This document shows, piece after piece, positions 1-21,908 of a DNA stretch of 34,436 nt. Positions within the stretch are counted from its first letter, which is position 1, and every line of letters begins with the position of its first letter. Source of the DNA: Gammaproteobacteria bacterium (GTDB taxonomy: Bacteria > Pseudomonadota > Gammaproteobacteria > SG8-11). The notes under the pieces are model-generated. The model saw only the letters and a program-made list of their open reading frames with translations. It did no database searches and was not told the origin of the DNA. The DNA is taken from positions 1-34,436 of the forward strand of contig JAHECY010000041.1 in assembly GCA_024641505.1 (NCBI GenBank), in the 5' to 3' direction. Both the position numbers and the translations under genes were made by a program.

Positions 1-2893
1 CGGCATCTTCCAGGGTCTGCATCAACTGCAACACATTGATGGGCTTGGTCAGATATTTGAGGAATCCCGCCTGCTCGCCACGCTCCACATCCCGCGGCAT
101 GGCATTGGCACTGATGGCGATCACTGGAATACGAGTGGTCGCACCATTTTCCTTGAGCTTCTTCATCACCCGGTAACCGTCCATACCGGGCAGATTGATA
201 TCCAGCAGGATCACATCCGGTAACTGCGTCTGGGCCAGCTCCAGGCCCAACAAGGGTTCAGGGGCCGAGAACATTTCCACACCTTCATACTGCGACAGAA
301 TATTCTCCACCAGACGCAAATTCGCGGGGTTGTCTTCAACATAGAGAATACGCACGCGTTGGCGCCGCAATAAGCCACCGGGCAATTGCGCGAGATGTTG
401 CTGCCGCTCCATGCGCAATTCCTCGCTACCGAGACTGATCGGCAGTTCAAAACTGAACTCCGATCCCGTGCCCAGGGTACTGCGCACCGAGATGCTGCCG
501 CCCATCAGCTCCAACAACTTCTTGGCGATCACCAAACCGATGCCGGTGCCTTCAACTTCGGTCTTTTCCGCGCCCATGCGCTGAAAGGGCGTGAACAAAT
601 GCGCCAGTTTGGCCGCCTCCAGACCTTCGCCGGTATCCGATACGCTCACGCGCACCCGCTCGCCGGCAACTACCTCGCTTTTGATGGTGATCACACCGCC
701 CTGGCGATTGTATTTGACGGCATTGGACAACAGGTTCAACAACACCTGTCGCACCCGGGTGCGATCCGCCAGCACCGGTTCATCATTGAAATTTTCTTCC
801 TCCCGAACAACGCTGATTTGCCGGCGCCGCGCGATGGGCGTGATCAGCGTCTCGGTTTCATCGATGACGCTGGCCACCGATATTTCTTCGATGACCAGCT
901 CCACCCTTTGAGACTCGATTTGGGACAAATCCAGAACTTCATTAATCAACTCCAGCAGATGATTGCTCGCCCGATGTATTTCCGCGATCGCCTGCCGGTG
1001 CTTGGAATTCAGACTGACGTCCATTTCCAACAATTGCGTGAATCCCAAAATAGCATTCATGGGAGTTCGCAGTTCATGACTCATACTGGAGAGAAACTCG
1101 GATTTGGCCTGATTCGCCCGTTCCGCATCCTCCTTGGCATCAATCAGCATCTGTTGTTGCAACTTGGATTCGGTAATATCCTGCACGATACCGAAAAATG
1201 ACATGACGTTTCGCGCCTGATCATGCATGGATTTTGACACGGACGCCAGGGTGCGCAGGGAGCCATCGGTGCGCACGATGCGATACTCCATGTCCGGTAC
1301 TTCGCCCTTTTCAAACAGCATGGTCATATTCTGCTGTAATAAAGGCTTATCTTCTGCATGCACCATGGATAAGAACAAATCGAGATCAGGCTTATGAGTC
1401 CCTCTGTCGAGTCCGAAAATTTCATATATTTCGTCTGACCACTCCACTGATCCGGTCCCCGGCTCCAACGCCCAGTAGCCGATATGCGCAATGCGCTGCG
1501 CCTCAGTGAAACGCTCCTGGGTAAGCTGCAGCGCATGCTCGTTACGCTTGCGCTCAGTGATATCTTCGGCATGCACCATAACGGTGTCCGGCGGCACAAA
1601 TGCAAATTTTAACGACAGGTAACGCTGCCCCTTGGATGAAATATAGTAGGGAATTTCCCGCTCGATCGAACGCCGTGACCGAAAACACTCGGCGATCAGT
1701 TCGAGGATTTCCGGGTCATTCCGGTGCAGGTCACCGGCTTTAATGCCGAAGTACTCCTTGATTTTGCCGTCGGTATAACGCATCGCGGCATCATTGGCAT
1801 CGCGCAACACGAAATCATCGCCCTCCCGCTGCCAGGTATAGGTAGGGATGGGAATGGCGAGATAGTGGGCACGAAGCTTTTCCTCGTTCCGGCGCAACTG
1901 TTCCGCCTGATCCATAACCGCGGAAATGTCGCGCGCCAAAGCCAAAAAATTCTTGGCGCCGCGCTGACTGAACGCGCATACATTGACATCCACTGAAATT
2001 TGGTGACCATCCTTGCACCGGTGGTTACCCTGCAGGCGGACACAAGCTCCGGGCGCCAGCTCTGACCATGCCTGGGTAAGCAGTTCCGGGGCGACCCCCT
2101 TTTCCAGATCGAACACCGTCAATGACAGCAACTCATCCCGCGTATATCCCAGGATGTTGCAAGCCGGCGAGTTGACATCCAGCAGCCGTCCCTGGTCATC
2201 ATGGAGAAACATCGCATCCGCAATATTCTCCACCAGGGTGCGGAAGCGGTTTTCACTTTCCTGTACCAAGGAAAATTGCTGAAAATTTTGTTGCGACGTC
2301 GTTAGATTACGCAGCATGTTGATATGCAGGCGCCGCGCGCTGATCAAACTCACACCGAGGAATAAGCTACATAACAGTGCCAATTCGTTAGAGGCCGCAT
2401 TCATTTCCCACAGCAGACGGCCAATCACCGGCAACAGACTGAGAATTTGAAATATGACAAACAAACGGAACACATAGACCAGGCTGGACACCAAAGCAGC
2501 GGAGAGCGCCACCAGCGCCAACACCAGAAGTACTTGATGGGTATGCAAGCCCGAGGGAAACATCAATAACCCTGCGGCGCCCCATACCCCACCCAGGAGT
2601 GCCACGCCGATCGAAACCCGGAGCAACCACTTTGATTCATTTGCATGACCGGGTGCGGCGCGGCGATATAACACCAGGTTAACCCACTGATAACCGATCA
2701 CCAGCAATATCAACATCAACCAGGACAACCATTGCTGCGGAGCCAGCACCGGCGCCAACATCAGCGCCAGAGTGACGGCGACCAGGAAGGTGCTGCCGAG
2801 CATAAAGGGTAGCGCCTGAACTAATTGATTCACTTGCCATGTTTTAAATGGTAACAACGACGTTGATCCGGACATGGAATCGGCTATGGGCAT
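1..2893 (-). CDS. Membrane-anchored hybrid sensor histidine kinase with PAS domains and receiver (3' end outside window)
   Basis: The frame is open from ATG 2893 to the left edge, about 964 codons, so the C-terminus is missing. ATG 2875, six codons in, is an equal start candidate; neither has a clear Shine-Dalgarno. The first ~200 residues hold about six hydrophobic segments. Three PAS-like domains follow: one near residue 216 (ENRFRTLVENIADAMFLHDD), one near 334, and a PAS with PAC near 456. The HisKA H-box reads SHELRTPMNAILGF with phospho-acceptor His near residue 606. The HATPase N-box NLLSNAVKYN lies near 720, and a G-box region (GTGIGLVIAKKL) follows. The receiver domain begins ILYVEDNPANLRL, has phospho-acceptor Asp near 898 in LLDINLPGMDGY, and Lys in LTKPI. 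It is probably an inner-membrane sensor that passes phosphate from His to its own Asp. No HPt domain or separate regulator is visible. It lies 238 bp downstream of the giant cytochrome gene on the same strand, but a functional link is only inferred. The signal sensed is unknown. Confidence 0.93.
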   Translation of the reverse strand, partial: MPIADSMSGSTSLLPFKTWQVNQLVQALPFMLGSTFLVAVTLALMLAPVLAPQQWLSWLMLILLVIGYQWVNLVLYRRAAPGHANESKWLLRVSIGVALLGGVWGAAGLLMFPSGLHTHQVLLVLALVALSAALVSSLVYVFRLFVIFQILSLLPVIGRLLWEMNAASNELALLCSLFLGVSLISARRLHINMLRNLTTSQQNFQQFSLVQESENRFRTLVENIADAMFLHDDQGRLLDVNSPACNILGYTRDELLSLTVFDLEKGVAPELLTQAWSELAPGACVRLQGNHRCKDGHQISVDVNVCAFSQRGAKNFLALARDISAVMDQAEQLRRNEEKLRAHYLAIPIPTYTWQREGDDFVLRDANDAAMRYTDGKIKEYFGIKAGDLHRNDPEILELIAECFRSRRSIEREIPYYISSKGQRYLSLKFAFVPPDTVMVHAEDITERKRNEHALQLTQERFTEAQRIAHIGYWALEPGTGSVEWSDEIYEIFGLDRGTHKPDLDLFLSMVHAEDKPLLQQNMTMLFEKGEVPDMEYRIVRTDGSLRTLASVSKSMHDQARNVMSFFGIVQDITESKLQQQMLIDAKEDAERANQAKSEFLSSMSHELRTPMNAILGFTQLLEMDVSLNSKHRQAIAEIHRASNHLLELINEVLDLSQIESQRVELVIEEISVASVIDETETLITPIARRRQISVVREEENFNDEPVLADRTRVRQVLLNLLSNAVKYNRQGGVITIKSEVVAGERVRVSVSDTGEGLEAAKLAHLFTPFQRMGAEKTEVEGTGIGLVIAKKLLELMGGSISVRSTLGTGSEFSFELPISLGSEELRMERQQHLAQLPGGLLRRQRVRILYVEDNPANLRLVENILSQYEGVEMFSAPEPLLGLELAQTQLPDVILLDINLPGMDGYRVMKKLKENGATTRIPVIAISANAMPRDVERGEQAGFLKYLTKPINVLQLMQTLEDA

Positions 2894-3130
2894 CAATCAG
2901 ATATGAAATATTGAAAGTACTCGTAGAATAGCCTACTGCCGAGCCAAGAATCAATGCGCATCGTGACCGCGATGCCCGCCGAATTTCATGCGGATAATTG
3001 GTGTATTACCGAATACGCCGGGCAATACCCTACCCAGGACATGATTTTGCGCGATATCCGCGCGTGCCACCCCCGTATCCGGTGGACACCGAAGCATCCG
3101 CGATTATCTCCAGTTCGGCCCGGTTGCCGG

Positions 3131-6100
3131 CTACCAGTGCGCGTCGCCAGCGGTATGATGGCGCTCGCGTATTTCAACAGCAGCGTCACGCAGGTAAACA
3201 TGACAGACGCCGGTGCAATCTGCCAATTCAGCGACGGAATATGGCACCCGTTGCGGCAATGCGAATTTAAGATGCCGCAGCGCACGGTAATCACCCGCAT
3301 GACAACCGGCGCATTCTGACCGATAAGCCGGATACAGCCAGTCGACGCCCTGACGATTACCGGTATGACACCGCACGCACTGCATGTTGGCATGATACGC
3401 GCCAGGATATGCCCGGCTGCTGTGCTCGAAGTGCAGCGGCAACCATTTTGCGATGCCATGACAAACATCACAGCCCAAGTCACTCATGATGTGGCCGGCG
3501 GGCATGGCGGCGGCGCTCCCGCCTGCGCCATTATGGCAGGCGCTGCAACTGCCGATGACCAGACGGTGATCAAAAACCACCGCCGCCCAGGCGCTGACTT
3601 CATGGCACCCCTGGCAATCCGACTTGGTTTGCACATGCATCGGGGGTTTGGCGCGCGCCACGCCACCATCATGGCAGATACTGCAGTAATTGATTATCAC
3701 GAGCTTGTGATCGAAATGTACCGGTGTCCAGGCCTGAACGTCATGACAACCTTGGCAATCACCGGTAGTGGTAACATGGGTCGCGGATTTGCCGGTGCGC
3801 AACACGCCATTGTGGCAGCTTTCACAGATGCCATCGACCACGCCATGATCCATGGTCACCGGCAACCAGGTGGCGGTACCGTGACAACCGCCGCAACCTG
3901 CCGTGGTTGGCACATGCAGGGCAGGTTTTCCGGTCTCGTGTCGGCCGTCGTGGCAATCGGCACAGGGCATTACCAGCAAGCTGTGATCCAGACTGACGAC
4001 CCGCCAGGCGGCGGTGTTATGGCAGACGTTACACTGGCGCGTGGTGACCAGATGTTGCGCCGGTTTCCCCCGAGCCTTTCGGTCATCGTGACAGAGACTG
4101 CATGCTCCGCTGATACCGTCGTGATCCATGGTAACGGGCAACCAGGCGCCGGCACTGTGACACAGACCGCAGTCACTGACGGTTGGTATATGGGCAGGCA
4201 TCATGCCGGCGGCGCTACCGCCATCGTGACACGATGCACAACGACCCGCCGTGCGTTTATGATCTACCACCGCTGGCGCCCAGGCGCTGGCAGCGTGGTG
4301 GCATACCTGACATGGTTCCGAAGTGCGCACATGCGTGGCGGATTTACCGCGCGCCAGAACCGTGTCATGACAGCGTACGCAAGCGCCGGTAATGCCCGCA
4401 TGATCCATTACGCCCGGTTTCCAGGCCGCAACCTGATGACAGAGCGCACAATCCACGTCTGTGGGAATGTGCACAACTGGTTTACCCCGCGCCTGCGTTC
4501 CGTTATGACAACTTGCGCAATTACCCGTGACCCGCGCATGATCCACGTGAGCCGGTCGCCACGCCTGGGTCCCGTGGCATGCCTTGCAGGATTCGCCGGT
4601 CGCGACATGGTGCGCGGGCATGCCGGTCGCCCGGGTACCGTTATGGCAGACCAAACAATCACCGGTAAACGTGTCATGGTTAACCTGCGCCGGCCGCCAG
4701 ACGTCGGCTCGATGACAAACAATGCATTCATGGTCGGTGACGATATGAGTCGCCGGCTTGGCCGTTGCCTGCACGCCATTATGGCAGGCGAGACAATTGC
4801 CGGTAATGCGCGCATGGTCCACGCGCACCGGCTGCCAGGCACCCACCCCATGACAGGTATTACACTCCTGATGGGTAACGATATGAGGATCGGGTTTGCC
4901 TTTGGCGGCACCACCGTTATGGCAGGTACTGCAACCGCCTTTGAAGCCTTCATGATTCGACGCCGCAGGCATCCATGCGGCTGTTTCATGACATAACGCG
5001 CAATCACTATTGGTTGGAATATGGGCGACAGGCTTACCATCGGCCTGGTCGCCGTTATGACAAGCCGCACAGGGACCGCTGATATTGCCGTGATTCATGG
5101 CCACCGGCAACCAGGCGTTATTGCCATGGCACAACGAACAATCTTCCCGGGTGAGGATATGCGCGGAAAACTTGCCCGTGGCATTCGCGCCGTTATGGCA
5201 GGCACCACAACCCTGCTTGATATCCTGGTGCGCAAAGCGGGACGGTAGCCACGCCCGTATATCATGGCACTCCAGACACTCTCCGGCGACTGGAATATGA
5301 TCCGGGTCCTTACCGGTCGCGCGCTTGCCGTCATGACAAAAACCGCAGCCCCCGGCAACCGCGGTATGTTGGAAGTTCACTGTGCGCCAGTCTTTGACCT
5401 CGTGGCACTGCCGGCAATCCGCCGCCACCGGCACATGTCTTGCCGGCAGACCGGAGGCCAGTTTGCCTGTATGACACACGGCGCAAGTACCGGTATCCAC
5501 GCTCTCATGCCGCATGGTCGCAGGCGCCCATGCGTCGGTTTGGTGGCATGACGCACAGCCTGCCGATGTTGGAATATGCAGCGGACTTTTCCCTACCGCC
5601 TGGGAATTGTTATGGCACGCGGCGCATGCCTGTTGCTCGCTGCGGTGATCCATGCGCACCGGTAACCACCGGTCCACAGCGTGGCACCTGACACAATCTG
5701 ACGTCGTCGGTATATGGCGCGCCGGTTTCCCGGTCACGGCTGGTGACTGACCATCGTGACAGGTCTCACACTCGGCGCGGGGTTCACCATGAAGATAATG
5801 CGCCGGCAGCCAGGCGCCGACCACATGGCAAATATCGCATTCCAGACCCGTAAGTATGTGATCCCGGCCCATACCGCGCACATTAATTCCGTTATGACAC
5901 GTGCGACAGGCGGCAGCATCCGCGCCATGATCAAAATGCACGGGCAACCAGGCCGTGGTAACGTGGCACCGGCTGCACGGACCGGCACTCATCCGCAAAT
6001 GGCTGCGTCCCGGGCCGGACGCCACCTTGCCGTCATGGCAGGTCAGACATGGGGCGGCGACTTGCGCATGGTCGACGCTGGCATTCTGGAAACTTGCGGT

Positions 6101-6376
6101 GATGTGGCAGGCCGCGCACTGTTCCGACACCGGTAGGTGATCAGCGCCCTTGCCATGTGTTGCGGCATCGTGGTGACACGCCGCGCAGGCGCGTGGTGTT
6201 CCAAGGAAGGTGCCATCGACATGGCATGAGGTACAAGTAATATCACGATGCTTCCCGGTAAGATCGAAGCCGGCATGGGCATTATCGCCCAGCGACGAGA
6301 CCAGGTCTGCGGCGTTGAGCGGGGGCCATGCCGTGAGCAGCAACAGTAGTACTATCGCGTACGATTTGGCAGTCAT
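3131..6376 (-). CDS. Giant secreted multiheme c-type cytochrome (43 CxxCH plus one CxxxCH)
   Basis: This 1,081-residue protein starts with a signal peptide (MTAKSYAIVLLLLLTAWPPL then NAAD), which decides ATG 6376 over the in-frame GTG at 6409. I count 43 CxxCH heme-attachment motifs and one CxxxCH (CTGVCH at 3200-3217). The body is a tandem repeat of about 46 residues. Each unit has one motif followed by AWxPVxxDH and a second of the form CxxCHNG, then a GKPxxHI/V segment. Every unit therefore holds two heme sites and two further conserved His that could be distal ligands, which fits bis-His low-spin hemes. The family resembles paired-CxxCH (cytochrome c3-like) proteins. A periplasmic or extracellular electron-conduit role is inferred. 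No porin, other cytochrome or heme-maturation gene is adjacent. The C-terminus is His-rich (HHTAGDAHW). The reading frame is intact, with no break through about 20 repeats. Confidence 0.95.
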   Translation of the reverse strand: MTAKSYAIVLLLLLTAWPPLNAADLVSSLGDNAHAGFDLTGKHRDITCTSCHVDGTFLGTPRACAACHHDAATHGKGADHLPVSEQCAACHITASFQNASVDHAQVAAPCLTCHDGKVASGPGRSHLRMSAGPCSRCHVTTAWLPVHFDHGADAAACRTCHNGINVRGMGRDHILTGLECDICHVVGAWLPAHYLHGEPRAECETCHDGQSPAVTGKPARHIPTTSDCVRCHAVDRWLPVRMDHRSEQQACAACHNNSQAVGKSPLHIPTSAGCASCHQTDAWAPATMRHESVDTGTCAVCHTGKLASGLPARHVPVAADCRQCHEVKDWRTVNFQHTAVAGGCGFCHDGKRATGKDPDHIPVAGECLECHDIRAWLPSRFAHQDIKQGCGACHNGANATGKFSAHILTREDCSLCHGNNAWLPVAMNHGNISGPCAACHNGDQADGKPVAHIPTNSDCALCHETAAWMPAASNHEGFKGGCSTCHNGGAAKGKPDPHIVTHQECNTCHGVGAWQPVRVDHARITGNCLACHNGVQATAKPATHIVTDHECIVCHRADVWRPAQVNHDTFTGDCLVCHNGTRATGMPAHHVATGESCKACHGTQAWRPAHVDHARVTGNCASCHNGTQARGKPVVHIPTDVDCALCHQVAAWKPGVMDHAGITGACVRCHDTVLARGKSATHVRTSEPCQVCHHAASAWAPAVVDHKRTAGRCASCHDGGSAAGMMPAHIPTVSDCGLCHSAGAWLPVTMDHDGISGACSLCHDDRKARGKPAQHLVTTRQCNVCHNTAAWRVVSLDHSLLVMPCADCHDGRHETGKPALHVPTTAGCGGCHGTATWLPVTMDHGVVDGICESCHNGVLRTGKSATHVTTTGDCQGCHDVQAWTPVHFDHKLVIINYCSICHDGGVARAKPPMHVQTKSDCQGCHEVSAWAAVVFDHRLVIGSCSACHNGAGGSAAAMPAGHIMSDLGCDVCHGIAKWLPLHFEHSSRAYPGAYHANMQCVRCHTGNRQGVDWLYPAYRSECAGCHAGDYRALRHLKFALPQRVPYSVAELADCTGVCHVYLRDAAVEIRERHHTAGDAHW
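3460..6000 (-). repeat. Tandem ~138-bp coding repeats of the multiheme cytochrome
   Basis: Within the cytochrome gene a unit of about 46 codons (138 bp) recurs roughly 18-20 times. Each unit encodes two heme motifs separated by about 23 residues. Recurrent peptide words are AWLPVTMDH, CHNGxxAxGKP and HIPTxxDC. Unit edges are approximate and units vary in length by a few codons (for example an extra residue in CHHAASAW). The repeated composition also leaves long spurious open frames on the opposite strand. The DNA copies are diverged rather than identical, which suggests old duplications. Confidence 0.85.
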
Positions 6377-6601
6377 GATGGCTGATCTTTGACAATAAGC
6401 AACCGACACTCCCGGATAACGCGCGGCAATTCGCCGTAGCGCGCGTATTACGCACCGGCTGTTGTCGGCTTCGCACTAGAAAAACAATGATGCGTGACAC
6501 GCACCCTACCCGCTCTCCGACCGAGAGCCATCAAACAAAATGCGTCAGCATGCCCCACCCGTAACAGGTGGTGGAAAACGCCAGGCGCAACCACCAATGG
6601 G

Positions 6602-6698
6602 AATATTTGTCACCATATCATATCCGTAGAAAGACGCGTATCACGAACCTTTGCACCAATCACAGAATACGGTTCGTGACACCTACCTGACAAATATT
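6602..6698. repeat. Nested inverted repeats in the der/multiheme intergenic region
   Basis: The 393-bp gap between the cytochrome start (6376) and the der stop (6770) holds no convincing gene. It contains two perfect inverted repeats. The outer pair is AATATTTGTCA (6602-6612) and TGACAAATATT (6688-6698). The inner pair is TCACGAACC (6641-6649) and GGTTCGTGA (6671-6679). No T-run follows either hairpin, so an intrinsic terminator is unlikely. They may be regulator sites or RNA structure in the leader of the minus-strand cytochrome gene. I could not place a convincing -35/-10 pair for that gene. Confidence 0.55.
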
Positions 6699-6769
6699 TT
6701 TATGTGGAAATAGGAGAACGGCGCGTCCCTGGCATAAGCATTGCGCATCCGCCGGGATGATGTTCAGGA

Positions 6770-8155
6770 TTATTTTTTCACATGCCGCATCAAACGTTTG
6801 CGACGTTGTTGCTGGCGCGGAGTCAACTTATTCTTGCGCCCTTCAAAGGGATTCTTGCCGGTTTTGAACTCCAGGCGCACAGGAGTGCCATGCAATTTAA
6901 GCACATCGCGAAACACACCGACCAGGTAGCGTTTATAGGAATCCGGCAAATTCTCGGTCTGGTTGCCATGAATGACGATCACCGGGGGATTCTTGCCGCC
7001 TTGATGCGCATAGCGCAGCTTGATACGACGCCCATGCACCAAGGGCGGTTGGTGTTCCGTGACCGCCTGCTCCAGGATGCGCGTCAATTGCGGTGTCGCG
7101 AAATTCCGGAAAGCGGCGGCATGGGCTTCGGCAACAAAGCCGAACAAATCACCGACGCCTGAACCGTGCAATGCGGAAATATAATGCATGGTGGCGAAAT
7201 CCAGATACGGCAATTTACGCGCCAGCTCTTTCTTGATGAAATCGCGCTGCTCGGTCGCCAAACCATCCCATTTATTCACCGCCACGATCAACGCGCGACC
7301 TTCATCCATGATATACCCCAGCAGATGACTGTCCTGGTGGCTGATTTCCTGCTGCGCGTCCAGCACCATGATCACGACATGCGCGTCTTGAATGGCTTGC
7401 AGCGCTTTGACGATACTGAACTTCTCCACCGCCTCCTCAATATTCTTGCGGCGGCGCACGCCTGCCGTGTCGATCAAGACATAGTTCTGCTGTTCGCGCT
7501 GAAACGGCACGTAAATACTGTCGCGAGTGGTGCCGGGCATGTCGAAAACCAGCACCCGATCCTCGCCCAACATGCGGTTGACCAGGGTCGACTTGCCGAC
7601 ATTGGGACGGCCGACGATCGCCACCTTGATGGCATCCTCCGGCAGCGGATCAACACCGACATCCACCGGCACATCCGCCAGCGCTTCTTCCAGCAGCAGC
7701 TTGACACCTTGTCCGTGGACGGCGGCGATCAAGCGCGGCTCCCCCATACCCAAGGCAAAAAACTCGGCACGGGCAATATCGGGATTCCTGCCATCCACTT
7801 TATTGACGACCAGGTAACAACTCTTGCTATGGGTGCGCAGAAAACGGCCTACGGTTTCGTCGCCGGCTACCAGCCCATCATGGGCATCGACAAGAAAGAA
7901 AATAATCGTTGCCTCGTCGACAGCTCGGCGCGCCTGATCGGCCATCAAGCCATCGATGCCGGTTTCCTCGTTGCCCAGGCCCCCGGTGTCGATGACGATA
8001 AAACTTTTACCGTCATAACTGCCGGTACCGTATTTACGGTCGCGCGTCAGCCCTGGCTGGTTCGCCACCAGCGCGTCGCGGCTGCGGGTAAGCTGATTGA
8101 ATAATGTCGATTTGCCCACATTCGGACGACCGATCAGGGCGATAACTGGGCGCAT
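6770..8155 (-). CDS. der: Ribosome biogenesis GTPase Der (EngA)
   Basis: This 461-residue protein has tandem GTPase domains, the hallmark of Der. Each has a P-loop GRPNVGKS, at residues 9-16 and about 182-189. G3 motifs are DTGGL and DTAGV; G4 motifs are NKVD and NKWD. A C-terminal KH-like domain ends in a basic tail ([15 protein letters not shown]). Der acts in maturation of the 50S ribosomal subunit. ATG 8155 is chosen because the protein then begins [16 protein letters not shown], as in the family; the frame stays open upstream to 8308 but that extension has no family features. It is the last gene of the long minus-strand block and lies 181 bp downstream of bamB. Confidence 0.97.
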
Positions 8156-8307
8156 GGGACTTGCCTGATAATGGTTAAATACTTGGACGCGCGTCAGCGC
8201 ACGTTCGGACGAAACACATCTCGCCAGGATGCAAAGCACGCAATGCAACTGCGCGTCGCCTTGCGGGGCATGGTTTGGCTCCCGCTCCGCACCTTGGCGT
8301 CCTGGCA

Positions 8308-8321
8308 AGCAATATATTGCT
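8308..8321. repeat. 14-bp perfect palindrome between bamB and der
   Basis: AGCAATATATTGCT at 8308-8321 is a perfect palindrome located 15 bp past the bamB stop, within the 181-bp bamB-der gap. It has no T-run on either side. It could be an operator or an RNA hairpin in the transcript leading into der. Nothing else recognisable lies in the gap. Confidence 0.3.
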
Positions 8322-16810: not shown

Positions 16811-17149
16811 CTAGTGGCTTTCAGATACCATATTAATGGTGTACTTGGGAATTTCCACAACCAGATCGGCCGCCGACACCTTAGCTTGACAACTCAACCG
16901 GGATTCGGGTTCCAGGCCCCATGCTTTATCCAGCAAATCCTCTTCATCCTCGGTGGCGGGCGCCAGCGTGTCGAAACCCTCGCGGATAATTACGTGACAG
17001 GTGGTGCAAGCGCAGGATTTTTCGCAAGCGTGCTCCAGGGCAATGCCATGTTCCAGGGCAGCATCGATAATCGTAGTCCCGGCCCGCGCTTCAATGATAG
17101 CGCCATCCGGACAAATTTCTTCATGGGGTAAAAAGGTTAACGTCGGCAT
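16811..17149 (-). CDS. fdx: ISC-type [2Fe-2S] ferredoxin
   Basis: This 112-residue adrenodoxin-type ferredoxin has cluster ligands Cys42, Cys48, Cys51 (HACEKSCACTTCH) and Cys87 (RLSCQAK), the same numbering as E. coli Fdx. In the ISC system it supplies electrons for cluster assembly. It lies 12 bp after hscA. Confidence 0.97.
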   Translation of the reverse strand: MPTLTFLPHEEICPDGAIIEARAGTTIIDAALEHGIALEHACEKSCACTTCHVIIREGFDTLAPATEDEEDLLDKAWGLEPESRLSCQAKVSAADLVVEIPKYTINMVSESH

Positions 17150-17161
17150 ATTGGTTACATG

Positions 17162-19039
17162 TCAGGTTTGGCTGAATTCCGTAAGTTTGTGACCCTTAAG
17201 CGCCCGCTCAATACCGGCATTCATGCGCCGGGCAGCAAACTCCCGCGTGATCTGTTCCAGGTCGTCGATAGCGCGTTTGATGGCATTGCCATCGACGCCC
17301 TGATGCACCTGATCGAGCAGGGTCATCTGATGTTCAATGGCGATACGTTCGTCAGCGGACAATAAACGCGCGCCGTCTTCCGCCAGCGCACCGCGCAGAG
17401 CTTCCAGTACGCGATCCGCTTCCACTTGCTGTTCCCGTAACATGCGGGCAGCGATATCCTCGCGCGCATGGGTCATGGACTCCCCCAGCATGCGGGTGAT
17501 TTCATGATCCGTCAGGCCGTAGGAAGGTTTGATCTGAATCCCGGCCTGCACTCCCGTGACCTCTTCGCGGGCGCTCACCGACAACAGACCATCGGCATCC
17601 ACCTGGTAGGTAACGCGAATCCTGGCCGCACCGGCCACCATCGGGGGAATGCCGCGCAGCTCAAAACGGGCCAGCGATCGCACATCGGTGACCAGTTCGC
17701 GTTCTCCCTGCACCACATGGATAGCCATGGCGCTTTGACCATCCTTGAAGGTAGTAAAATCCTGGGCTTTGGCCACTGGAATCGTGGTATTACGCGGGAT
17801 CACTTTTTCCACCAATCCTCCCATGGTCTCAATACCCAAGGAGAGAGGAATCACATCCAGCAGCAACATTTCCGTATCCGGTTTGTTACCGGCCAGGATA
17901 TCCGCCTGGATCGCGGCGCCAATGGCCACTACCCGGTCGGGATCGATATTCACCAGTGGTGATCGCTGAAAAAATCTGCCGACCATGTCGCGCACGCGCG
18001 GCACCCGCGTAGAGCCGCCAACCATTACGATCTCGCGAATCTCGTCAATGCCGATGCCGGCGTCACGCAGCGCCCGTTTGCAGGGCAGCAGGGTCTTCTG
18101 CACCAACGAATCGATCAAGGCATGTAATTGTTCGCGATCAAGCACGCCGTGCCAATCCAGACCATAATCCGTGAGTTCAACATGCGTTTGCTCGGCGTCG
18201 GACAATTGCTCCTTGGCCTGACGCGCCACCTGCAACAGGCGTCGCATCTGGCGGTGATTAACGGCATCACCAAGACCCGCTTGCGCCATGAGCCAATGCG
18301 CAATGGCATAATCGAAATCGTCGCCACCCAGCGCCGAATCACCGGCGGTCGCCATCACCTCAAACACGCCTTTATTGAGGCGCAAGATGGAAATATCGAA
18401 AGTGCCGCCACCCAGATCATAAACGGCATAGACACCCTCGGCTTCCTGGTCCAGACCGTAGGCGACGGCAGCGGCAGTAGGTTCGTTGAGCAACCGCAAT
18501 ACCTGCAAACCCGCCACCCGTGCGGCGTCTTTGGTGGCTTGACGCTGCGCATCGTCGAAATACGCAGGCACGGTGATTACCACGCCCGTCAACGGGCCGC
18601 CCAATGTCGCTTGCGCACGCTGTTCCAAGGTTTTGAGAATCTCTGCCGACACTTCCACTGCGGTGACCGGGCCGGCAACTGTTTTGATCCGTGGTACCGG
18701 ATCATCAACCGTTACAAATTCATAAGGCAGATTGCCGCCCAGGGAGCCGACATCCTCCAGGCCGCGCCCCATGAAACGCTTTACCGAACTAACGGTATTC
18801 AACGGATCACTCACCTGCAGGGCCGCTGCCGCAGCCCCGACCAATACTTCACCCGACGCCGCGTAATGCACCACCGAGGGCAACAAATGCCGACCCTCGC
18901 CATCGGGCAACGTGGCCGGCTGCCCGCTGCGCACAGTGGCAATCAGGGAATTGGTAGTACCCAGATCGATACCGGCCGCCAACCGATGCGCATGAGGCGC
19001 CGTGGACTGACCGGGTTCGCTGATTTGCAGTAAAGCCAT
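17162..19039 (-). CDS. hscA: Fe-S cluster assembly Hsp70 chaperone HscA
   Basis: This 625-residue Hsp70 has the nucleotide-binding signature [10 protein letters not shown] (residues 23-32), [13 protein letters not shown] and [14 protein letters not shown], followed by a substrate-binding domain ([16 protein letters not shown]). HscA uses ATP to drive cluster transfer from IscU, recognising an LPPVK motif in IscU. That gene is not in this operon, so its partner must be encoded elsewhere or replaced. It follows hscB by 22 bp. Confidence 0.96.
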
Positions 19040-19061
19040 AATCTATTCTGCATCAATGGAG

Positions 19062-19598
19062 TTAAACAAGCTCGTCTTCCAGACGATCAATCTCATCCTG
19101 CAAGCGATACATAAATTGCAATTTCTTTACCCCGACCACCGCCGGCCGCCAGTCCACCACATCTGACGCACGAAAACAATCGTGCAAATTGCTTAGCAAA
19201 GTCTCCCGCCGAGCCGCAACTTGCGCCGCAATCACCGCCAGTTCGGCCACCGGCGCCGGGGTCTCGCGCACCGCGCCGAGACGCTCCCGCAATTCCATCT
19301 GCTCCATCAGAAATGCCGGCTCCAGCGGGTCGCCATTGGTGGCATCGACATCGACGCCTTTCAGGTGCAGCAAATACTTGGCGCGTAGCAAAGGATCCTT
19401 TAATACCTGAAACGCATCATTGATTTGCGCCGCATGTTGCACCGCAAGACGCTGTTGCTGGGCGCCGGCATTGGCATATTTATCCGGATGCACTACCTGT
19501 TGCAACTGCCGATAACGTTCTGCCAATGCTCTGCCGTCCACATCGAAAGCAACGGGAAGATCGAAGATCTGATAATGATTCTGGCTTTGGAGAGTCAC
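19062..19598 (-). CDS. hscB: Fe-S cluster assembly co-chaperone HscB
   Basis: This 178-residue J-domain protein has the HPD motif at residues 37-39 (QQVVHPDKYAN) and a C-terminal helical domain that binds IscU in characterised systems. It stimulates the HscA ATPase. The start is GTG 19598 (protein begins MTLQSQNHYQIFDLP, in line with the family), with only a weak upstream AAGAAA. It follows iscA by 20 bp. Confidence 0.95.
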   Translation of the reverse strand: MTLQSQNHYQIFDLPVAFDVDGRALAERYRQLQQVVHPDKYANAGAQQQRLAVQHAAQINDAFQVLKDPLLRAKYLLHLKGVDVDATNGDPLEPAFLMEQMELRERLGAVRETPAPVAELAVIAAQVAARRETLLSNLHDCFRASDVVDWRPAVVGVKKLQFMYRLQDEIDRLEDELV

Positions 19599-19618
19599 TT
19601 CGATTTCTTGCGTGGTCG

Positions 19619-19942
19619 TTAGACGGTGAAACTTTCACCACAGCCGCAGGTATCCTTGACATTGGGATTGTTGAACTTAAATCCCTCGTTCAAACCATCT
19701 TTGCCATAATCAAGCTCGGTGCCGTCGAGATAGACGAGACTTTTAGGATCGATGATGATAGTCACCCCCTTGGCCTCAAACACCGCGTCCTCCGGCGCCA
19801 CCTCATCAACAAACTCCAGCACATAGGCCAGACCGGAACAACCCGTGGTTTTCACTCCCAACCGCAGGCCCACACCTTTGCCGCGATTGGCCAGAAAGGT
19901 CTTGATGCGCTGTGCGGCGTTATCAGACAAGGTTATCGCCAT
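19619..19942 (-). CDS. iscA: A-type Fe-S carrier protein IscA
   Basis: This 107-residue protein begins [17 protein letters not shown] and has the A-type ligands Cys in TTGCSGLAY and the pair in DTCGCGESF. IscA carries iron or Fe-S clusters to targets. ATG 19942 has an AGAGGTAG site that overlaps the iscS stop region. The gap to iscS is only 10 bp. In the canonical operon iscU lies exactly here, so IscA directly follows IscS without the scaffold gene. Confidence 0.96.
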
Positions 19943-19952
19943 ACTGCTACCT

Positions 19953-21170
19953 CTAGTGGTGCGCCGCCCATTGGACAGTGTTGAGATCGATGCCATCCTT
20001 GAACATCTCCCATAACGGCGACATTTCGCGTAGTTTCGCGATTTTGTCATGGACCAGCTTGATAACAAAGTCTACTTCCTGATCGGTAGTGAACCTGCCT
20101 AGAGTAAAACGGATAGAGCTGTGCGCCAATTCATCGCTGCGGCCCAGCGCTCGCAACACATAGGAAGGCTCGAGACTGGAGGAAGTGCACGCTGAACCGG
20201 ACGACACCGCCAGCTCCTTCATGGCCATGATCAGGGACTCCCCTTCCACAAAATTGAAGCTGACATTCAGATTATGTGGCACCCGGTGCTCCAGATCGCC
20301 ATTAAGATAGACTTCTTCAATGTCCTGGAGCCCGTGCCACAGGCGATCGCGCATAGCGCGAACGTGGGCGTTCTCCGACGCAAACTCCTCCCGTGCCAGG
20401 AGAAATGCCTCGCCCATTCCAACGATCTGGTGGGTCGGCAGCGTACCGGAGCGCAAACCGCGTTCATGCCCCCCGCCGTGCATTTGCGCTTCCAGCCGGA
20501 TGCGAGGTTTGCGACGCACATACAACGCGCCGATGCCTTTGGGTCCGTAAACTTTGTGCGCAGACAGTGACAGCAGATCCACTTGCATGGTCGTCACGTC
20601 GATGGGTGTTTTACCGGCACTCTGTGCGGCGTCTACGTGGAAAATTATACCTTTCGATTTCACCAGGGCGCCAATGGCGGCGATGTCCTGAATGACACCA
20701 ATTTCATTGTTAACGTGCATGATCGAAACAAGTACAGTGTCATCCCTTAGCACAGCCGCCAGCTTGTTGAGATCGATCAATCCGGAGGCTTCGGGATCGA
20801 GATAAGTAACCTCAAAACCTTCCCGTTCCAGTTGCCGGCAGGTATCCAGAACCGCTTTGTGCTCGGTCTTGCAGGTAACAATGTGCCGGCCTTTTTTCTG
20901 GTAAAAATGGGCTGCGCCCTTGATGGCCAGATTATCGGATTCCGTGGCGCCGGAGGTCCAAATGATTTCCTTGGGATCGGCGTTGATCAGCGCCGCGACC
21001 TGTTGTCGCGCCAGCTCTACCGCCTCTTCGGCATGCCAACCGTAGGCATGGGAGCGGGACGCAGGATTTCCAAATTCAACGTCAGGCGTAAGATATTCCA
21101 TCATTTTCTTCGCCACGCGGGGATCAACTGGCGTGGTTGCAGAATAATCCATATAAATCGGACGCTTCAT
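19953..21170 (-). CDS. iscS: Cysteine desulfurase IscS
   Basis: This 405-residue PLP enzyme takes sulfur from cysteine for Fe-S clusters and tRNA thiolation. Visible are the PLP-lysine region [13 protein letters not shown] and the active-site loop [17 protein letters not shown] with the persulfide Cys. The C-terminus [20 protein letters not shown] matches housekeeping IscS, so the gene end is intact and the missing iscU is not due to a truncated iscS. The start is ATG 21170 ([19 protein letters not shown]). It is preceded by a 267-bp gap after iscR. Confidence 0.97.
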
Positions 21171-21437
21171 CAATTCAATTCTCGTCAAAGATGTTGAGAA
21201 AAAATCAAGGGTATTAAAAAAGCAGATGTGGAACCACTCCCCAATAGGGGTACCACCGCGCAAGCGGCGCTGCCAAAACTATTATTATCGATTTAGGCTG
21301 TAGAAAAATCCCCACTTGGGAAAAACTTTCTCTCGCTGACAGGCGCCGTCTTTTTGCGCGACTGCCAGACCCCCACTCCCTTCAATGGCTGCAGCGGTCT
21401 TTGCGAGAGAAATATTTAGTCCCCATTGACGAGAACG
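21171..21437 (-). promoter_or_regulatory. Structured iscR-iscS intergenic leader
   Basis: The 267-bp gap holds no convincing gene but several short hairpins. ATTGACG/CGTCAAT with a 4-nt loop (21425-21442) overlaps the iscR stop. On the minus strand TCCC-AAGTG-GGGA followed by TTTTT (near 21310-21326) looks like a weak terminator. CCGC-TTGC-GCGG and CCCC-TATT-GGGG lie closer to iscS. In E. coli this interval controls iscR versus iscS-UA mRNA stability; a similar role here is inference. Confidence 0.4.
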
Positions 21438-21908
21438 TCAATTCGTTGCATGGAATACCCGTTGTTCAATGATTCGTTTCTCCTGGCGCTCGGCCACTTC
21501 CTGAATTGCTCGGTTTTCCACCAAATGTCCAAGACTGATGCCACTGAGAAATTCAAAAATCTTGTCACTGAGATCACACCACAGCTCATGGGTCAGACAG
21601 GAGTCATTATCCTGGCAGTTACCCTTACCTTCACAACGCCGTGCATCAATTTTTTCGTCAACCGCGGTAATTACATCAACCACGGCGATTTGCTTTGCAT
21701 CACGACTCAACCGGTATCCACCACCGGGGCCTCGGGCGCTGGAGACCAGCCCGTTCTTCCGTAATTTGGAGAATAGTTGTTCAAGATAAGACAGAGAAAT
21801 TCCCTGACGTTGAGAAATATCGGCGAGTGTAATCGGGCCCTTGTGATCGTGAATGGCAAGATCCAACATCGCGGTCACCGCATAACGGCCTTTTGTCGTC
21901 AATCGCAT
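21438..21908 (-). CDS. iscR: Fe-S-sensing Rrf2-family repressor IscR
   Basis: This 156-residue Rrf2-type winged-helix regulator ([20 protein letters not shown]) carries the [2Fe-2S] ligands Cys92, Cys98, Cys104 and His107 in [21 protein letters not shown] (identical numbering to E. coli). With its cluster it represses the isc operon; loss of cluster relieves repression. Autoregulation of the downstream genes is expected from the family and the position at the operon head. Confidence 0.97.

Follow-up and report, generated by a model that had tools for sequence, protein, structure and literature searches.

A putative orphan paralogue of the PCC3 extracellular cytochrome with 44 heme motifs in a gammaproteobacterial genome

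A cytochrome gene between der and a hybrid histidine kinase

The window, by which we mean the whole stretch of 34,436 nucleotides analysed here, contains a multiheme cytochrome gene situated between the housekeeping gene der and the gene of a hybrid histidine kinase (Table 1). A preliminary description had reported 43 CxxCH motifs and one CxxxCH in its 1,081 residues, and our recount in the translation (6376 to 3131) gave exactly these numbers, against a maximum of 4 CxxCH (mean 0.7) in the shuffled protein. The strand of the gene, absent from that description, is the minus strand. The mature protein, of about 1,059 residues, carries 44 motifs and so has a heme density of about 24 residues per heme. 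Pfam and NCBIfam searches with the protein returned partial multiheme matches only.

The reading frame runs for 3.2 kb without a stop codon or frameshift, and all heme motifs are intact. Comparison with a paralogue on contig C52 of the same genome (pN 0.38; pS 0.75, the latter saturated) suggests that the gene has evolved under purifying selection. Since the frame, the heme motifs and the regular distal histidines described below are all preserved, and pN is about half of the saturated pS, the encoded protein is probably functional.

The host assembly is a draft of 222 contigs, 99.5% complete with 3% estimated contamination. In a genome of the same genus the block ispG-hisS-yfgM-bamB-der occurs in the same order, with 65-91% identity, indicating that the contig belongs to the host lineage, and we rejected contamination on the basis of this shared gene order. 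At the same locus of that genome the kinase directly follows der and the cytochrome is absent; the gene would appear to have been either gained in the host or lost in the sister genome. The upstream non-coding gap is possibly the cytochrome gene's own promoter region, and its two sigma-70-like matches are weak, with 7 such matches found over the whole stretch versus 3.1 expected. Elsewhere in the window, the isc operon (16811-21908; iscR, iscS, iscA, hscB, hscA, fdx) lacks an iscU gene between iscS and iscA, and the sole IscU/NifU_N match of the genome is on another contig, C47.

Table 1. Features of the cytochrome locus, in window coordinates.
Feature	Position	Strand	Description
Multiheme cytochrome gene	3131..6376	minus	1,081 aa, ATG start; 43 CxxCH and 1 CxxxCH
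Type I signal peptide, residues 1-22	6311..6376	minus	MTAKSYAIVLLLLLTAWPPLNA/AD; read from the sequence by inspection; no lipobox Cys
N-terminal cap, residues 23-86	6119..6310	minus	GFDLTGKH....CxxCHxxGxFxGTPxxCxxCH; two hemes 16 aa apart
Repeat array, residues 87-968	3473..6118	minus	38 one-heme units of ~23 aa, types A and B alternating
C-terminal cap, residues 969-1081	3134..3472	minus	three CxxCH, one CX3CH, HH, terminal Trp; typical of PCC3 extracellular subunits
Atypical heme motif CTGVCH (CX3CH), residues 1054-1059	3200..3217	minus	both Cys and the His in 34/34 aligned caps
Upstream non-coding gap, 393 nt	6377..6769	minus	two weak sigma-70-like matches: 6693-6664, 6644-6617
der (GTPase)	6770..8308	minus	open frame; upstream neighbour, housekeeping, synteny anchor
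PAS-PAS-HisKA-HATPase-receiver hybrid kinase	2..2896	minus	cut by contig end

Alternating one-heme repeats

The central array is built from two 23-residue unit types, type A (CALCHGTAAWLPVHMDHAGVTGA; pattern CxxCH...AWLPV..DH......) and type B (CAACHNGGQATGKPAAHIPTTAD; pattern CxxCHNG..A.GKP..HIPT...). Successive CxxCH motifs are spaced by exactly 23 residues in 33 of 42 cases, and a heme motif is present at every register position. All 32 regular units compared retain, besides the two cysteines and the histidine of the motif, a histidine at position +16, providing one candidate distal ligand per heme. The two-heme repeats of about 46 residues with an extra histidine that had been proposed earlier are thus borne out as alternating A and B units, and at the sequence level these histidine-rich repeats fit the long heme chain for which the spacing had been judged regular enough.

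Collapse or expansion of the repeats during assembly, which would have undermined the heme count, left no sign in the gene, where no exact repeat exceeds 17 nt and the two-heme units share 28-62% DNA identity (mean 45%). Exact repeats this short and units this different indicate that the array is not recent, making such an assembly error very unlikely.

End domains shared with PCC3 extracellular subunits

By inspection, the signal peptide proposed earlier is an ordinary type I peptide without a lipobox. It is followed by a cap that in most capped relatives reads FDHxxxTGFxLxGxH....CxxCHxxGxFxGTPxxCxxCH; the window protein has lost two residues of the FDH...TGF segment, leaving its N-terminal cap partly eroded. 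The last 122 residues, with the CX3CH motif and the terminal Trp, recur twice in its own genome, in a PCC3-cluster cytochrome on contig C128 (40% C-cap identity) and in the C52 paralogue, a 945-residue orphan (44%, and 46% in the full alignment, which leaves the C128 value at 40%).

We found the C-terminal cap in 32 of 369 genomes of the class, and the surroundings of the fetched matches were mostly complete PCC3 clusters, in which an FeS-NAD oxidoreductase, an inner-membrane protein, a periplasmic multiheme cytochrome, the capped multiheme cytochrome and a porin are encoded together. The capped subunit in these clusters has 16-70 motifs (median 24, n=24), which places the 44 motifs of the window protein within the family range. 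Because the caps are common to PCC3 relatives with differing motif counts, the architecture can be described as two constant caps, N- and C-terminal, enclosing one-heme units that vary in number. Across the clusters at loci L091-L123 the periplasmic subunit nearly always has 21 CxxCH (18-24) and the extracellular one 15-69, as if the length of one were fixed by the envelope and that of the other were free.

The density of 24 residues per heme also lies within the 22-39 published for PCC3 extracellular cytochromes (PMC5566968), and the C-terminal cap is complete. The gene neighbourhood differs from that of the family: der and the hybrid kinase are the neighbours, and no porin, periplasmic multiheme cytochrome or inner-membrane partner stands beside the window cytochrome, which counts against its being a PCC3 subunit. 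In a tree of 34 C-terminal caps its end branch was the longest (2.18 versus a median of 0.33) with the heme ligands kept, and this long branch, together with mostly open forks, left the window copy unplaced. Being the most divergent of these caps, and having suffered partial loss in the N-terminal one, the protein may have altered or lost its docking.

Judged from these sequence comparisons, the window protein appears to be an orphan paralogue of the PCC3 extracellular multiheme subunit, a known part and not a new kind of wire, and the shared end-pieces favour an extracellular over a periplasmic location. The earlier proposal of a stand-alone periplasmic or extracellular wire therefore holds insofar as the gene is an orphan at its locus, but not as regards a new kind of wire, its caps being those of the PCC3 subunit.

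Genome contigs searched with the window protein alone yielded no match, nor did viral contigs and PHROGs, and a plasmid search gave one distant Emticicia cytochrome. A three-protein alignment retrieved eight distant multiheme loci from genome contigs (Melioribacter, Ignavibacteriales, Deltaproteobacteria and others), which we rejected as orthologues; several are PCC3-like but have three-heme repeats of about 71 residues.

Electron conduits elsewhere in the host genome

The host genome encodes two complete PCC3 clusters (contigs C128 and C200) and two MtrB/PioB porins next to decaheme genes (L124 = G000:C209, L125 = G000:C222), giving at least four outer-membrane electron conduits, as well as the heme-attachment proteins of c-type cytochrome assembly. 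One of the two MtrB/PioB loci also includes an 831-residue, ten-heme protein of MtrC size. The earlier remark that no partner porin lies nearby is correct for the neighbourhood but does not extend to the genome, and with PCC3 clusters and MtrB porins at other loci a missing neighbour porin does not imply a missing partner.

Structural models and comparison with named systems

AlphaFold2 models built without hemes were of low confidence, both for the full single sequence (pLDDT 28.5, approaching 60 only in helix 4-15 of the signal peptide) and for a 10-heme segment with a three-row alignment drawn from segments of the protein itself (pLDDT 39.7, pTM 0.19). A profile of the repeats, compared with the PDB, found its best solved relative in MtrA of the MtrCAB crystal (6r2q_A, E 2.5e-6), a match that rests largely on heme motifs; the chain is oddly labelled in the entry, and PMC7198977 identifies 6R2Q as the Mtr complex. 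MtrA is a linear ten-heme wire of 80 Å with little secondary structure (PMC7198977). The MtrA/DmsE decaheme (MtrCAB, 6R2Q) thus resembles the window protein in its repeat-unit profile and in a likely linear bis-His chain poor in secondary structure, whereas MtrA has 10 hemes and threads the MtrB porin and the window protein has 44 motifs. Membership of the DmsE/MtrA family itself (TIGR03508) was rejected, with 140.2 bits in eight partial matches falling below the cut-off of 192.2. The MtrC/OmcA decaheme lipoproteins were likewise rejected, given the absence of a lipobox Cys, the 44 motifs and only partial matches to PF22113.

PCC3 extracellular cytochromes (PMC5566968; Gallionellaceae clusters 241/242, PMC10734462) are secreted, as is predicted for the window protein, and like it composed of heme-bearing repeats, and those of the clusters examined here share with it the N-terminal cap, the one-heme units of about 23 residues and the CX3CH cap. 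Unlike them, the window protein lies outside a cluster, has the most divergent C-terminal cap aligned and is present or absent within a genus.

Proposed role and alternative readings

Taken together, the homology of the end domains, the PCC3 clusters and heme-attachment proteins of the host, the intact motifs, the MtrA profile match and the density of 24 residues per heme favour a PCC3-subunit identity, which is weakened by the lack of adjacent partners, the divergent caps and the absence at the sister locus. On balance we consider it fairly probable that the protein is a paralogue of the extracellular PCC3 subunit, encoded outside any PCC3 cluster, and that it serves as a surface electron conductor or capacitor that works with PCC3 conduits in trans. 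It would be exported, with hemes loaded by the Ccm system, and would reach the cell surface. If packed as in MtrA (80 Å per 10 hemes), its hemes would by extrapolation form a mostly linear bis-His chain of about 35-40 nm. Through this chain a PCC3 or Mtr porin conduit would exchange electrons with a donor or acceptor outside the cell, iron minerals for example, and the chain would buffer them as well. The conduit would be supplied by other loci, with docking presumably through the conserved end-pieces, and electrons might flow either way.

An extracellular cytochrome that functions like OmcS/OmcZ, alone as a wire or by forming filaments, and without PCC3 conduits, would agree with the orphan position of the gene and the non-coding gap upstream of it, with the divergent end-pieces and with other orphan capped multiheme cytochromes of 46-52 motifs in unrelated families (L100, L111). 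Such a function shares with Geobacter OmcS/OmcZ the proposed long-distance extracellular conduction, although those proteins carry 6-8 hemes per subunit and gain length by polymerisation, whereas here the length lies in one chain. The caps, however, are common to conduit-bound subunits, and the PDB sequence matches contained no named filament cytochrome that would point to an OmcS/OmcZ-type relationship, so we regard this option as improbable. Similarly doubtful is confinement to the periplasm, where the protein would act as a wire or store electrons: a signal peptide without a lipobox, a 44-heme chain long enough to span the periplasm and the storage roles proposed for such proteins (PMC11495043; PMC10734462) would all suit it, but the capped relatives are predicted extracellular subunits, and PCC3 clusters encode a separate periplasmic subunit, whose heme number is nearly constant at 21.

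That the gene was acquired recently or is decaying, and now has no role, might be suspected from its presence and absence at one locus in two genomes of a genus and from the longest branch of the cap tree, yet with its uninterrupted frame, intact motifs and regular distal histidines, and pN well below pS, we hold this to be very unlikely. An assembly or binning artefact, whether expanded repeats or a foreign contig, would be conceivable in a fragmented draft with some estimated contamination, but is made almost negligible by the 17-nt longest exact repeat and the five syntenic genes.

Larger cytochromes and a possible family of surface conductors

Contrary to what the preliminary description had implied, the heme count itself is not new. 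PCC3 was described in 2017, and its extracellular cytochromes, which have heme-bearing repeats and 22-39 residues per heme, reach 85 hemes, the median being 34 (PMC5566968); Gallionellaceae members have 10-35 (PMC10734462). An 86-heme protein occurs in ANME-2c (PMC9012536), a 112-motif protein in a Paludibaculum MAG (PMC11495043), and a 113-heme protein, in 2020 called the largest in any microorganism, in Ca. Methanoperedens (PMC7327174). With PCC3 cytochromes of comparable heme count already published, the window protein adds to a known class, which is widespread though its function is still unverified in the literature (PMC12442390). Particular to it are its orphan state and its divergence.

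A family of proteins of this kind is encoded in the host genome, with some members larger than the window protein. A 3,306-residue frame on contig C131 (L009 5888-15805, plus strand; G000:C131:13887-23804) has 129 CxxCH with spacings of 16-29 residues and a longest exact repeat of 33 nt, and further open frames have 79, at least 51, 43, at least 40 and 37 CxxCH. In a distant genome of the class (G216), a 4,086-residue frame (L110 2977-15234, plus strand; G216:C17:42976-55233) with weak C-cap similarity has 133 CxxCH, ten CX4CH and one CX3CH; its longest exact repeat is 74 nt, so its assembly needs checking. The Ca. Methanoperedens Mn-2 and Paludibaculum proteins, also very large single-chain multihemes, are by heme count, not sequence, larger than the window protein and smaller than these two frames. 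The frames, more surprising than the window protein, exceed the maxima of 112 and 113 found in a partial literature search, and priority cannot be claimed; how chains of this length acquire their hemes, are exported and stay conductive is a question that they pose.

More speculatively, and with considerable doubt, cytochromes with related end-pieces and from about 20 to 129 hemes, many encoded by orphan genes, might act as plug-in surface conductors that share or compete for a few PCC3 conduits and set the distance of electron exchange, the window gene being one module gained or lost between species. The protein with 129 motifs would then rank among the largest known cytochromes formed by a single chain. 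With two PCC3 clusters, relatives of varied length and an orphan capped subunit in one genome, one can test whether the caps serve for docking and whether heme-array length governs reach or storage.

Proteins at the end of contig C125 (L013 5279-8689) and the start of C133 (L017 3-1964) have common sequence, which suggests one lipoprotein-type cytochrome of more than 60 hemes split over two contigs; the DNA of the C125 end and the C133 start showed no exact overlap. A second group of large cytochromes has, in place of the CX3CH cap, a linker of Pro, Ala and Gly followed by a tail rich in Gly and in most cases dotted with Met (GGGMGGGG), and is encoded at L009, L010 (two genes), L014 and L015, as well as in the sister genome (L122).
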